Assembly: GCF_946479975.1 (NCBI RefSeq)
Contig: NZ_CAMLIX010000072.1
Span: 1 to 20,342, forward strand
DNA from: an uncultured Flavobacterium sp.
GTDB lineage: Bacteria > Bacteroidota > Bacteroidia > Flavobacteriales > Flavobacteriaceae
DNA: 20,342 nucleotides
Reading direction: 5' to 3'
The notes beneath the pieces were generated by a model. It worked only from the letters and a program-made list of their open reading frames with translations, had not been told where the DNA came from and made no database searches. A program made the translations under genes and the position numbers. Below are positions 12,318 through 16,479 of this stretch, piece by piece (the first letter of the stretch is position 1; each line of letters begins with the position of its first letter).

Positions 12318-13436
12318 ATGAAAAAAGCAATCGCAAACGCCGTTATATATACAGGAGAAGAAATAATTGAAAATGGAGTTGTAATTGTAGAAAACGGAAA
12401 AGTAATTTCGGTGCAGAAAGAAATTCCAAACGATATTGAAATAATCAATTTAAAAGGAAGTCATATTTCGGCAGGTCTTATAGATATTCAGATTAATGGC
12501 GGAGAAAAATTGTATTTCAGCCAAACGCCAAACGAAGAAACTATTCAGGATATTTACGATGCAAGTATGAAATACGGTACAACGCATGTTTTACCTTGTT
12601 TGATATCTTCTTCAAAAGAAACTATTTTAAAAGGAATTGAAGCTGTTCGAGAATATAGAATAAAACACAATAACGGCGTGATGGGAATGCATTTAGAAGG
12701 TCCGTTTTTAAATCCGCTGCGACGAGGTGCACACAGCATTGACCAAGTTAGAAAACCAACCGATGAAGAACTTCAGGAAATCATCGAAAAAGGAAAAGAC
12801 GTTATAAAAGTCATTACCATTGCTCCAGAATGTTTTACAGAAAAACAATTGAATATGCTGATCGAAAGCGGTATCAAGATCTCGATCGGACATTCGACAA
12901 TAACGCACAAAGAAGCACAGCCTTATTTTGCAAAAGGAATAAATCTCGTAACCCATTTATTTAATGCAATGACACAATTTGGTCATCGCGAACCGGGTTT
13001 GGTTGGAGCTGTTTTTGAAAACGAAGACGTTTATGCTCCAGTAATTTTAGACGGAGTTCATTGCGATTATGCAGCAGCAAAAGTGGCGTACAAACTAAAA
13101 AAAGAAAAGTTTTTCCTAATCAGTGATGCGACATTTTTAGGTCGAAAAGTTGCCAATTTTAACTGGGATAATTTTGATGCCCATTTAGTAGATGGTTTTT
13201 ATAGAAATGAAGACGGCAATTTGGCGGGAGCAACAATATCAATGACAGAAGCTGTTCAAAATGCATACAATTATTTGAATGTTTCTGTAGATGAAGCCAT
13301 AAAAATGGCAACAACAAGAGTCGCTTCTGCAATTGGAATGCAAGATAAAATAGGAAAAATTAAAGTTGGATTTCCGGCAAGTTTTGTCAGATTCAACGCT
13401 GATTTAAGTGAGATGGAAACACTTAATTTATCTTAA
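12318..13436 (+). CDS. nagA: N-acetylglucosamine-6-phosphate deacetylase
   Basis: 372 aa, the expected family length. It is a cytoplasmic amidohydrolase that removes acetate from GlcNAc-6-phosphate, yielding glucosamine-6-phosphate for catabolism or wall-sugar recycling. Motifs: the G-L-I-D-I-Q-I-N-G entry strand (54-61), HLEGPFLNP with metal Glu127 (125-133), GHST with His192, H213 in HLFNAMTQFGHREPG (213-227, substrate site), DGVHCD (245-250) and catalytic Asp270 in ISDAT. Like other NagA proteins it lacks the HxH of many amidohydrolases. It appears monocistronic; no nagB, permease or chitinase is adjacent. The ATG at 12318 follows a -7 element closely. Confidence 0.93.
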   Translation: MKKAIANAVIYTGEEIIENGVVIVENGKVISVQKEIPNDIEIINLKGSHISAGLIDIQINGGEKLYFSQTPNEETIQDIYDASMKYGTTHVLPCLISSSKETILKGIEAVREYRIKHNNGVMGMHLEGPFLNPLRRGAHSIDQVRKPTDEELQEIIEKGKDVIKVITIAPECFTEKQLNMLIESGIKISIGHSTITHKEAQPYFAKGINLVTHLFNAMTQFGHREPGLVGAVFENEDVYAPVILDGVHCDYAAAKVAYKLKKEKFFLISDATFLGRKVANFNWDNFDAHLVDGFYRNEDGNLAGATISMTEAVQNAYNYLNVSVDEAIKMATTRVASAIGMQDKIGKIKVGFPASFVRFNADLSEMETLNLS

Positions 13437-13605: not shown

Positions 13606-13632
13606 ACTTTGATTAGCAATCGTTTTAGTAGT

Positions 13633-13647
13633 CTATCAATTTGATAG
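13633..13647. promoter_or_regulatory. 15-bp palindrome, operator candidate for the met operon
   Basis: CTATCAATTTGATAG is a perfect palindrome around a central T. It lies about 50 bp upstream of a TAnnTTTG -7 element and upstream of the metNIQ leader. This position suits an activator, or a repressor acting at a distance. The cognate regulator is unknown; an Rrf2-type sulfur regulator is one guess. Confidence 0.45.
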
Positions 13648-13696
13648 GTTAATAAAAGTTTTGATATTTTTTATATAAAAATTAAAATTTACTGCT

Positions 13697-13704
13697 TAAA
13701 TTTG
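13697..13704 (+). promoter_or_regulatory. TAnnTTTG -7 element of the met leader transcript
   Basis: TAAATTTG is an exact consensus match. Transcription would start around 13709-13713, right at the ATG of the leader ORF, making that message leaderless or nearly so. No TTG is found at the ideal -33 distance; the nearest is about 33 bp upstream at 13661-13663. Confidence 0.45.
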
Positions 13705-13712
13705 CAACCGCA

Positions 13713-13808
13713 ATGAGAAAAAGTAACCAGAATATGAAGAATTATTATAACACCAGTACAATGTGCTGTGATGGGATAATGCTATTTATTGAACTGGCTT
13801 ATATATAA
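13713..13808 (+). CDS. 31-codon leader peptide upstream of metNIQ
   Basis: A short ORF (ATG at 13713, TAA at 13806) lies between a -7 element and a strong terminator that precedes metN. The peptide contains Met at 1, 8, 17 and 23 and a tandem Cys pair (TSTMCCDGIM, residues 14-23). Met and Cys codons in a leader ahead of a methionine importer suggest ribosome-mediated attenuation. GGCTT (13796-13800), inside the last codons, could pair with AAGCC (13828-13832) of the terminator's 5' arm, helped by ATATAT/ATATAT (13801-13806 with 13813-13818), although a 9-nt bulge weakens that fold. A ribosome reaching the stop would block this pairing and favour termination. One stalled at Met-Cys-Cys would not. 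The ORF and hairpin are seen; the mechanism is inferred. Confidence 0.5.
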   Translation: MRKSNQNMKNYYNTSTMCCDGIMLFIELAYI

Positions 13809-13824
13809 AATGATATATTTATTT

Positions 13825-13860
13825 AAAAAGCCTTTCATAATTATGTTGAAAGGCTTTTTT
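13825..13860 (+). terminator. Terminator or attenuator directly upstream of metN
   Basis: AAAAAGCCTTTCA and TGAAAGGCTTTTT form a 13-bp stem around a 9-nt loop with a run of T, ending 22 bp before the metN ATG. It can only affect transcripts entering metN, so it is either the end of the short leader transcript or the regulated element of an attenuator. Confidence 0.85.
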
Positions 13861-13882
13861 GTTTTTAAATCTTAAATAAAGA

Positions 13883-14914
13883 ATGATTGAATTAAAAAAT
13901 GTAACCAAAACGTTTCATCAGAAGGACAGGATTGTTTCTGCTTTGTCTGATGTCTCGCTGAGCGTTCCTGCAGGGAAGATTTTTGGTGTAATTGGTACTT
14001 CGGGCGCAGGAAAAAGTACGCTGATTCGTTGTGTAAATTTACTGGAAAGACCAACTTCGGGCGAAATTATTGTAGACGGTAAAGCCTTGATGCAGTTATC
14101 AAATTCAGAATTAGCGATTGAAAGAAGACAAATCGGAATGATTTTTCAGCATTTTAACCTGCTTTCTTCAAGAACGGTTTTTGATAATGTTGCTTTTCCA
14201 TTAGAATTGGCGGGAATTTCAAAAAACGAAATTAAAACTCGTGTTTTAGAATTACTGCAATTAGTTGGTTTGGCCGAAAAAGCAAATGATTATCCGGCAA
14301 GTCTTTCGGGCGGACAAAAACAAAGAGTTGCAATTGCGAGAACTTTGGCTAATAATCCAAAAGTTTTATTGTGTGATGAAGCTACAAGCGCACTGGATCC
14401 AGCAACAACAAGATCAATTTTGAATTTGTTGAAAGATATTAACAAACGCCTAAATATTACCATTTTGCTGATTACACACCAAATGGAAGTCGTAAAATCT
14501 ATTTGCGATGAAGTTGCCGTAATCAGCCACGGAAAACTGATAGAGCAGGGAAGTGTCGGCGAAATTTTCGCAGATCCAAAACATGAATTGACAAGAGAAT
14601 TTATTTCTTCTTCGCTTCATATTGAGGTTCCGTCTGTTTATCAGGAAAAATTACAAAAAGAAGATAATGGAAATCTGAATCCGTTATTGAAATTGGAAAT
14701 GACAGGAAAATCGGTTAATGAACCTGTGATCTCAGAAGTTTCAAGACTTTTTGATACCGATTTCAAAATCGTGAGCGCACAGATGGATCAGGCAGGCGAA
14801 GTAAATTTTGGAGTAATGCTGATTGAACTTTCAGGAAAACGCGAAAATTACGACGCGGCAATTCAATATTTTAATTCGAAACATATTAAAACAGAAATTA
14901 TAGGTTATGTCTGA
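13883..14914 (+). CDS. metN: Methionine ABC importer, ATP-binding subunit MetN
   Basis: 343 aa. It drives uptake of methionine delivered by MetQ through MetI in the inner membrane. The ATPase domain (about 1-240) has a full motif set: Walker [10 protein letters not shown] (38-46), Q-loop Q89, signature LSGGQKQR (141-148), Walker [10 protein letters not shown] (164-172) and H-loop His in L-I-T-H-Q. A C-terminal NIL (ACT-like) domain (about 265-343), which binds methionine and inhibits transport when internal methionine is high, is present. The gene begins 22 bp after the attenuator-like hairpin and its last 8 bases overlap the metI start. The intact motifs contrast with the degenerate ABC protein at 7784. 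Confidence 0.95.
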
Positions 14915-15560
14915 TTCACTTATAGATTTATTATTAAAAGGAACATGGGAAACCATTGTGATGACTTTTGTATCGGGCTTTTTTGGTTTTTTAATTGGTC
15001 TTCCAACAGGAATTTTATTATTTCTGACTCGTAAAAACCAGATTTTAGAACAGCCTGTTTTAAATAGAACATTATCAGTTTTGGTCAATGTTTTTCGTTC
15101 TATTCCATTCATTATTTTAATCGTTTGGATGATTCCGTTTACACGTGCAATTGTTGGAACTTCAATTGGTGTAAGCGCCGCTTTGGTTCCGCTAAGTATT
15201 GGCGCAGCGCCATTTATTGCCCGTTTGGTAGAAAATAGTTTACTGGGTCTTCCATCAGGATTAATTGAAGCCGCAAGAGCTTTGGGAGCAACACCTTTTC
15301 AAATTGTTTACAAAGTATTATTGCCAGAAGCGCTTCCTTCTTTAATCAACGCAGCATCGATTACATTAATTACTCTTGTGGGATATTCTGCAATGGGTGG
15401 AGCTGTTGGAGCAGGCGGTTTAGGGCAGGTTGGCTATCAATACGGTTACATTGGTTATGATGCCGTGACCATGAATTCGGTATTAGCGTTATTGGTAATC
15501 TTGGTTTTCATCATTCAGTTTGTGGGAGACAAATTATCAAAACGATTTGATCACAGATAA
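14907..15560 (+). CDS. metI: Methionine ABC importer, permease MetI
   Basis: 217 aa, full length, about five membrane segments. The cytoplasmic coupling loop carries the EAA motif ([14 protein letters not shown], about 121-134), followed by L-L-P-E-A-L-P, which docks on MetN. The ATG lies inside the end of metN with an 8-nt overlap (ATGTCTGA), implying translational coupling. Conserved Gly-rich segments near the C-terminus ([13 protein letters not shown]) are typical of MetI. Confidence 0.95.
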
Positions 15561-15607: not shown

Positions 15608-16420
15608 ATGAAACTAAATATTTTAAAAACGGCTGGAATTTTAGCTCTGGCACTTGTTTTATCGAATTGCGGAAAAAGTAAAAACAACGATCCTCATTTT
15701 ATTAAAGTTGGAGTAGCTTCTGGTCCTGAATTAAAAGTGGCTGAAGCAGCAAAAAAAGTAGCAAAAGAAAAATTCGGATTAGAAGTAGAATTGGTTTCTT
15801 TTAACGATTATGTTATTCCAAACGAAGCTTTAAGTCAGGGAGATATCGATGCAAACGCTTTTCAGCACAAACCTTATTTAGACGAACAATCAAAACAACG
15901 TGGTTATAAATTGGCTATCATTGGGAAAACATTTGTGTACCCAATTGCTGGATATTCTAAAAAGATAAAATCGCTTGCTGAATTGAAAAACGAAAGCACG
16001 ATTATTATTCCGAATGACCCAACAAACGGCGGCCGTTCTTTATTGCTTTTGCAGCAAAATGGTTTATTAAAGTTGAAAGATGGAGTTGGACTTCTTCCAA
16101 AAGTAACAGACATTGTCAGCAATCCTAAAAACTTAAAAATTTTAGAATTAGAAGCGCCTCAACTGCCTCGTGCTTTAGATGACGAAAATGTTTCTATCGC
16201 AATTATAAATAATACGTTTGCATCTGCAGCAGGATTGGTTCCTTCACGTGACGCTTTGTTTGTTGAAGACAAAGAATCGCCTTATGTGAATTTGGTGGTG
16301 AGCCGTGAAGACAATAAAAACGAAGAAAAAGTAAAACAGTTTTTACAAGCTTTTCAATCTCCAGAAGTAGAAAAAGTAGCCGCACAGGAATTTAAAGGCG
16401 GCGCTGTAAAAGGCTGGTAA
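15608..16420 (+). CDS. metQ: Methionine-binding lipoprotein MetQ
   Basis: 270 aa substrate-binding protein of the NlpA/MetQ family. The signal peptide ends in a lipobox-like L-S-N-C with the lipidated Cys at 21, so it should be tethered to a membrane facing the periplasm. Family motifs are visible: I-K-V-G-V-A-S-G-P, an N-E-A-L-S-Q-G-D-I-D-A-N-A-F-Q-H-K-P-Y-L-D stretch, and I-I-P-N-D-P-T-N-G-G-R-S-L-L-L-L-Q in the binding cleft. It follows metI after 47 AT-rich bases and is ended by a strong hairpin. MetQ proteins may also bind D-methionine or related compounds; methionine is the best prediction. Confidence 0.93.
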   Translation: MKLNILKTAGILALALVLSNCGKSKNNDPHFIKVGVASGPELKVAEAAKKVAKEKFGLEVELVSFNDYVIPNEALSQGDIDANAFQHKPYLDEQSKQRGYKLAIIGKTFVYPIAGYSKKIKSLAELKNESTIIIPNDPTNGGRSLLLLQQNGLLKLKDGVGLLPKVTDIVSNPKNLKILELEAPQLPRALDDENVSIAIINNTFASAAGLVPSRDALFVEDKESPYVNLVVSREDNKNEEKVKQFLQAFQSPEVEKVAAQEFKGGAVKGW

Positions 16421-16441: not shown

Positions 16442-16479
16442 AAAAAGACAGATAATTGCTTTAATTATCTGTCTTTTTT
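16442..16479. terminator. Bidirectional terminator between metQ and the membrane-protein gene
   Basis: AAAAAGACAGATAATT - GCTTT - AATTATCTGTCTTTTT is a perfect 16-bp stem with A and T runs on both sides. It lies 21 bp after metQ and touches the stop of the converging minus-strand gene, so it can end both transcripts. Confidence 0.9.

Follow-up and report, generated by a model that had tools for sequence, protein, structure and literature searches.

A probable ribosome-mediated attenuator with a methionine/cysteine leader peptide ahead of metNIQ in Flavobacterium and related bacteria

Comparison of related loci indicated that the metNIQ operon of the window (the whole stretch of DNA that was analysed, 20,342 nt) is very probably controlled by a ribosome-mediated transcription attenuator, which would respond to how much charged Met- and Cys-tRNA is available. 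A preliminary description had read the metN leader as a case of amino acid attenuation, and the comparison across relatives supported this reading. At the level of sequence, the comparison demonstrated a conserved leader ORF with a Met/Cys core, a terminator and compensatory change in the antiterminator of the Chryseobacterium set, and in most loci a geometry that would suit both ribosome positions. The window was regarded as Flavobacterium-like because its MetN is 92% identical to MetN of F. hercynium, F. araucananum and F. pectinovorum. A nagA gene (12318–13436) lies upstream of a palindrome, a promoter box, the leader ORF, a terminator and metN, whose ATG is at 13883. The features are as follows.

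13631–13649, no strand assigned: palindrome GTCTAT-N7-ATAGG(T), conserved; predicted to be a probable operator upstream of the promoter
13697–13704, + strand: −7 box TAAATTTG; TTTGC invariant in a 15-sequence alignment
13713–13808, + strand: leader ORF of 31 codons plus TAA, peptide MRKSNQNMKNYYNTSTMCCDGIMLFIELAYI; begins 8 nt past the −7 box
13727–13730, + strand: region 1, CCAG; potential partner of CUGG at 13794–13797 (1:2 hairpin)
13761–13769, + strand: control codons Met-Cys-Cys; additional Met codons at 13734–13736 and 13779–13781
13790–13800, + strand: region 2, UGAACUGGCUU; 5′ side of the antiterminator, predicted to lie within the footprint of a ribosome on the leader stop
13828–13837, + strand: region 3, AAGCCUUUCA; shared by the antiterminator (3′ side) and the terminator (5′ arm)
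13825–13866, + strand: intrinsic terminator with a 13-bp stem (13825–13837/13847–13859), 9-nt loop and T-rich tail
13883–14914, + strand: metN, methionine ABC transporter ATPase with NIL domain (TIGR02314, 548 bits, cut-off 499.7; PF09383)
14907–15560, + strand: metI, permease (NF008049, 384 bits)
15608–16420, + strand: metQ, substrate-binding lipoprotein (NF008285, 426 bits)

A 17-bp hairpin with a T tail at 16442–16478, past metQ, is likely the operon end.

The elements named in the preliminary description were present in the window. These included an exact −7 box, TAAATTTG, which we take to be the Bacteroidetes-type promoter element, and a 31-codon ORF with a Met-Cys-Cys run and four Met codons (codons 1, 8, 17 and 23). 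The strong intrinsic terminator claimed ahead of metN was verified as a perfect 13-bp inverted repeat with a T run, immediately upstream of the gene. The RNA of 13713–13870 folded at −35.9 kcal/mol compared with −22.8 kcal/mol (SD 3.6) for shuffled sequences (z = −3.6), and none of 200 shuffles was equally stable. GGCTT (13796–13800) was complementary to AAGCC (13828–13832) as claimed. The 9-nt bulge, described as a weak point of the alternative fold, proved unnecessary, and the bulged fold was discarded in favour of a better antiterminator, in which UGAA-CU-GGCUU (13790–13800) pairs with AAGCC-U-UUCA (13828–13837) through 4 + 5 bp with a 2 × 1 internal loop.

We infer the transcription start, translation, stalling, the kinetic competition and which amino acid dominates, and propose the following course of events. 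RNA polymerase would start just past the −7 box, and a ribosome would load at once on the near-leaderless ORF. When Met and Cys are plentiful, the ribosome at the leader stop would cover region 2, region 3 would then pair with region 4, and transcription would stop short of metN. If either Met- or Cys-tRNA becomes scarce, the ribosome would stall at or near Met-Cys-Cys, ca. 20 nt further upstream, and region 2 would stay exposed. It could then pair with region 3 while region 4 had yet to be transcribed, so that no terminator would form and the importer would be expressed. If the leader is left untranslated, the 1:2 hairpin (CCAG:CUGG) may sequester region 2 and lead to termination. In 35 Flavobacterium-type rows, 95% of the cells of this hairpin were paired and RNAalifold selected it, although its covariation was weak (17–37 of 500 shuffles were equally high).

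A Met/Cys leader ORF with a terminator downstream of it was found in 98 of 119 metN-upstream loci (37 Flavobacterium-type, 59 Chryseobacterium-type and two of another genus), placing codons for the amino acid of the operon in frame ahead of metNIQ. The 119 loci consisted of the window, 20 from an 80-locus set (L001–L009 plus 11 rows from Chryseobacterium; the 60 not used were mostly proteobacterial), and 58 and 40 from further collections. These collections partly overlap, and 84 rows were distinct across the stretch from region 2 to the terminator. Rows were accepted on the Met/Cys pattern in the ORF; the terminator was parsed automatically in 84 of the positive loci, and 14 were added by eye and script. 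No leader with terminator was found in the remaining 21 loci, namely L005 (only 21 nt upstream), L204 (212 nt in total), L006–L009, L065, L116, L117, L124, L172–L176 and L179–L184. Among the metN-upstream loci examined, those of Pedobacter and Dyadobacter, L065 and L124 yielded no leader. Short Cys-containing ORFs were seen by eye ahead of a terminator in L174–L176. In another genus (L174–L178), a different Cys-run leader (MFCCCDLTF, VCC) and a terminator precede metN, possibly of independent origin, and ACACUAUU:AAUAGUGU could form a 1:2 hairpin there, as judged by eye.

At the genome level, metN was detected in 33 of 199 Flavobacterium genomes (E ≤ 1e-100) and in 112 of 118 genomes of Chryseobacterium (the genus of G002). 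Because the two leader models, R1 and R2, were built from such leaders, their counts arise partly by construction: R2 had a strong match (E ≤ 3.7e-14) in 28 of the 199 Flavobacterium genomes, all within the 33 metN-bearers (five of which had no strong R2 match), and R1 had 96 strong copies (E ≤ 5.6e-11), one per genome, in 246 family genomes, counted by model match alone. A profile of 20 leader peptides searched against five genomes recovered the metN leader in four Flavobacterium and missed the known one in Chryseobacterium G002; 12 of its 21 weak additional rows were inspected and read as chance. The in-frame conservation on which the preliminary description depended was borne out, with the Met/Cys leader kept in most close Flavobacterium loci and in Chryseobacterium loci, and the competing helices kept as well. 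A Met/Cys ORF beside a terminator might arise by chance in a single sequence, but because it is conserved across relatives it is not attributable to chance here, and an accidental ORF was rejected on the grounds that it is kept across two genera.

The leader lay > 1 kb upstream of metN in 27 of the 98 loci, and a gene of 331–335 codons was found between them by script in 25 of the 27 (the exceptions being L137 and L187). This gene was EamA in all 10 loci scanned and also in L190. In operons headed by EamA, the leader precedes EamA rather than metN directly; judging from these arrangements, the leader follows the operon head. L190 (complement strand) carries two leader–terminator modules in series before EamA-DUF4395-metN. 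In L242 (598–1055), a Met/Cys leader and terminator precede a 96-codon NIL-only gene (PF09383), apparently a metN remnant.

Within the leader peptide, a constant core stands against a drifting remainder. Of 35 distinct Flavobacterium-type ORFs, 31 retained the core Met and 33 and 31 the two core Cys, and among 56 Chryseobacterium-type ORFs the Cys columns were kept in 40–51 and Met in all. Outside the core, nearest-neighbour pairs differed at 22 synonymous versus 179 non-synonymous codons in the Flavobacterium set and 85 versus 291 in the Chryseobacterium set. Met and Cys codons after the start averaged 5.9 (Flavobacterium) and 7.5 (Chryseobacterium) in frame versus 0.4–2.5 out of frame, an excess that is partly built in because a Met/Cys core was required for a row to be chosen. 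Gaps in the ORF were only 3, 6 or 9 nt long when the DNA of the 56 Chryseobacterium-type rows was aligned. An 8-nt gap in L106 and L107 shifts the frame past the core, yet the stop still adjoins region 2. The core is nearly lost in L115, where one Cys and one Met remain.

These patterns bear on what the ORF does. Its conserved Cys and Met codons would suit a functional thiol- or metal-binding peptide beside an ordinary terminator. The drift of the peptide outside the core led us to reject such a small protein, and region 2 is complementary to the terminator arm even in loci whose ORF stops short of region 2 (L003, L106, L107) or terminates on it (L108, L112), making this explanation highly improbable. 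It is also unlikely, though slightly less so, that the same anatomy operates through nascent-peptide arrest (TnaC/SecM type, perhaps ligand-induced) instead of hunger for charged tRNA. The core MMxCCM is alike across loci, as would fit an arrest peptide, but loci differ in how many Met and Cys they have and in what order (MMMYCCMP, MMKDICMP, MMCICMP, MFCCCD), the upstream residues that would lie in the tunnel drift (the 22 synonymous versus 179 non-synonymous codons above), and other operons have leader peptides that share the Met/Cys runs but are otherwise dissimilar. A tentative case can be made for an attenuator that senses mainly one amino acid, either cysteine or methionine, with the other incidental: Chryseobacterium cores may drop one Cys (NC, IC) while keeping two or three Met, in one genus the Cys runs are accompanied by few Met (VCC, FCCC), and the leaders of a cysM-like operon are Cys-rich. 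Against this, the large majority of metN leaders keep both (Cys in 31–33 of 35 and 40–51 of 56; Met in 31 of 35 and 56 of 56).

Methionine genes elsewhere are controlled by metabolite riboswitches (SAM, SAH) or T-boxes, and an element of this kind could in principle control the terminator. Nevertheless, no Rfam family reached its gathering score in the window and eight relatives, nothing convincing appeared in Rfam at a relaxed E-value, and the conserved part is a reading frame. A metabolite riboswitch was rejected on the lack of a family match, and we give this explanation almost no credence.

Returning to attenuation by charged Met- and Cys-tRNA, the preliminary description expected both competing pairings to co-vary in relatives. 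This held for the terminator and for the Chryseobacterium antiterminator. An intrinsic terminator lies between the leader and the first gene, and 99.5% of the cells in its columns were paired with 16 double-change cells, a result matched in none of 500 shuffles. In the Chryseobacterium-type loci, native 2:3 duplexes averaged −11.51 kcal/mol versus −10.64 kcal/mol (SD 0.15) with permuted partners, and none of 5000 permutations was as low; partner swaps across genera gave −5.8 and −5.6 kcal/mol. The Flavobacterium set alone showed no covariation in the 2:3 pairing (853 of 5000 permutations were as low), as this pairing varies too little there for covariation to show. Compensated 2:3 pairs were recognised by eye and from the duplexes as GGAGU:ACUCC (L191, L200), CAUGGU:ACCAUG (L128), UAUUGU:GCAAUA (L202) and UGUCGUA:UACGACA (L190). 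An exclusive antiterminator with compensatory change was thus found in the Chryseobacterium set, while the column counts were mixed. The antiterminator columns were 88.1% paired versus 34%–54% for slid versions, with five double-change cells (0 of 500 shuffles). For the fixed antiterminator columns, no clear excess over shuffles was seen in the score for covariation (170 of 500), in additional pair types (125 of 500) or in paired cells (50 of 500), and a register slid by +1 contained six double-change cells versus five in the actual one.

As far as geometry goes, the spacing of the pairing would suit the two ribosome positions in most loci. In an unbounded search of the leader, the best pairing ended −20 to +15 nt from the stop in 88 of 96 loci (37/37 Flavobacterium-type, 51/59 Chryseobacterium-type) and began at least 12 nt beyond the core in 73 (23/37 and 50/59). 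In the other 23 it began nearer to or before the core. The longest duplex began nearer the core in 14 of 37 Flavobacterium-type loci, and a better partner lay near or before the core in 8 of 59 Chryseobacterium-type loci. When the search was bounded, the pairing ended by 15 nt past the stop in 96/96 loci, left 12 nt to the core in 95/96 and formed as the antiterminator in folds of the stalled nascent RNA in 96/96, counts that are partly built in because the search was made to start 18 nt upstream of the stop codon's last base, or 10 nt downstream of the core. The fold criterion was lenient, with dinucleotide-shuffled spacers passing at 0.62–0.63 per locus. At equilibrium with a stalled ribosome, the terminator still won in 93 of 96 loci; therefore, the switch would have to be kinetic, working through kinetic trapping.

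Similar modules occur elsewhere. Of 40 weaker R2 places examined in Flavobacterium genomes, 33 had a Met/Cys leader and seven did not (L280–L282, L288–L291). Thirty of these leaders preceded one and the same Glu/Leu/Phe/Val-type dehydrogenase, two preceded EamA-like genes (L260 by scan, L261 by likeness) and one an APC permease (L266). The dehydrogenase of the one locus scanned (L264) matched PF00208, and its best NCBIfam match was a glutamate dehydrogenase, below the cut-off. Thus, L264 (201–530) and 29 similar Flavobacterium loci have a glutamate-dehydrogenase-type gene preceded by a Met/Cys leader with its terminator. Pairing between leader end and terminator arm was stronger than in mononucleotide shuffles (z < −1) in 27 of the 30 dehydrogenase leaders (not in L262, L273 and L283) and in all three others, in a search bounded at 24 nt before the stop end. 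Except for L273 and L283, the dehydrogenase loci had a second small Met/Cys-containing ORF (MRSNRNTNIMMQCCLIKIPCC type) with no obvious terminator. In L260 and L261 (both complement strand), a second Met/Cys leader and a second terminator were seen by eye.

Examination of 13 R1 places (12 weak ones and G299) identified Met/Cys leaders in two, L242 and L246; the other 11 were read as gene ends or spacers with terminators. L246 (complement strand) carries tandem leaders, MNTLIQYNNTQKTSMMVCCVCMQSRNCCIG and MKSKINNITAKICCMEKTIPIFCV. Behind each lies a terminator with an arm that, judged by eye, is complementary to the end of the leader over 7 bp. These modules precede a cysM-like gene (261 bits to TIGR01138, cut-off 394) and two further genes, one with a JAB domain and the other with a ThiS/ThiF domain. 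The cysM-like gene was matched in 5 of 296 genomes of the order (seven of the genus were also searched), and among these five, leaders were seen only in G736; the tandem-leader case was thus encountered in a single genome.

The palindrome upstream of the promoter is shared by metN and dehydrogenase leaders. Its 17-mer pattern preceded 37 of 37 Flavobacterium-type metN leaders and was absent from 91,643 nt of downstream background, and the 19-mer occurred in 36 of the 37 Flavobacterium-type loci and in 55 of the 59 of Chryseobacterium type. In both genera, the 19-bp form GTCTAY-N7-RTRGAC/ATAGG lies at a near-fixed distance from the metN leaders. The Flavobacterium-type 19-mer was located at −79 to −82 from the ORF start, except in L195, where it is at −40 because the ORF was called from an earlier ATG. 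The strict pattern preceded 19 of the 30 dehydrogenase leaders, and many of these leaders had the form TCTAC-TAATTC-KATAGA. The palindrome is likely the operator of some regulator, which would give dual control. Given that the modules are alike and that the metN and dehydrogenase copies share this palindrome, we consider it reasonably likely that the metNIQ switch is one of an undescribed Flavobacteriales family of sulphur-amino-acid leader attenuators. Its members would lie, some in series, before metNIQ, EamA transporters, the APC permease, the cysM-like/JAB/ThiS operon and the glutamate-dehydrogenase-type gene, placing glutamate dehydrogenase under Met/Cys-starvation control.

In Proteobacteria, ribosome-mediated amino acid attenuators include the trp, his, leu, ilv, thr and phe leaders. 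The metN leader resembles them in its control-codon leader peptide, 2:3/3:4 alternatives, a stop placed so that a ribosome there would probably cover region 2, and possible 1:2 hairpin, but differs in its Met and Cys control codons, importer operon and near-leaderless start, and some of its relatives carry tandem modules. The preliminary description knew of no example in this phylum. Leader-peptide attenuation as such is known there, as Rfam RF01692 (Bacteroid-trp, ‘Bacteroidete tryptophan peptide leader’) is a leader-peptide element from the same phylum, and a Flavobacterium psychrophilum transcriptome study refers to ‘strong clues’ for leader-peptide attenuation upstream of amino acid biosynthesis operons (PMC9723704). 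The former differs from the metN leader in its tryptophan codons, going by its name, and the window scored 22.4 bits against its gathering score of 49, outside the family. The latter share the genus and the clues of attenuation; ‘methionine’ occurs 0 times in the main text of that study. The claim stood for Met/Cys attenuators: no Met-reading leader-peptide attenuator was found among the matches listed for open-licence PMC main texts or in Rfam. In Actinobacteria, short ORFs with Cys runs lie ahead of sulphur genes, like the metN leader, and those of mycobacteria are leaderless; unlike the metN leader, they are Cys only, no conserved terminator hairpins were found with them, and translation attenuation is reported (PMC1262725; Canestrari et al. 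2020, as cited in PMC9031893). The S-box is also named in PMC1262725 in connection with methionine-gene control. The Met/Cys specificity and the controlled genes thus look new.

If true, these findings would show how a large, little-studied phylum senses sulphur amino acids, would offer a ready reporter system and would explain unannotated small ORFs rich in Met and Cys. The tandem modules would lend themselves naturally to testing whether attenuation can be graded or take two inputs. A sulphur regulon of transporters, cysteine synthesis and, unexpectedly, glutamate dehydrogenase would be predicted, and, if the family reading holds, nitrogen metabolism would be tied to sulphur through glutamate dehydrogenase.
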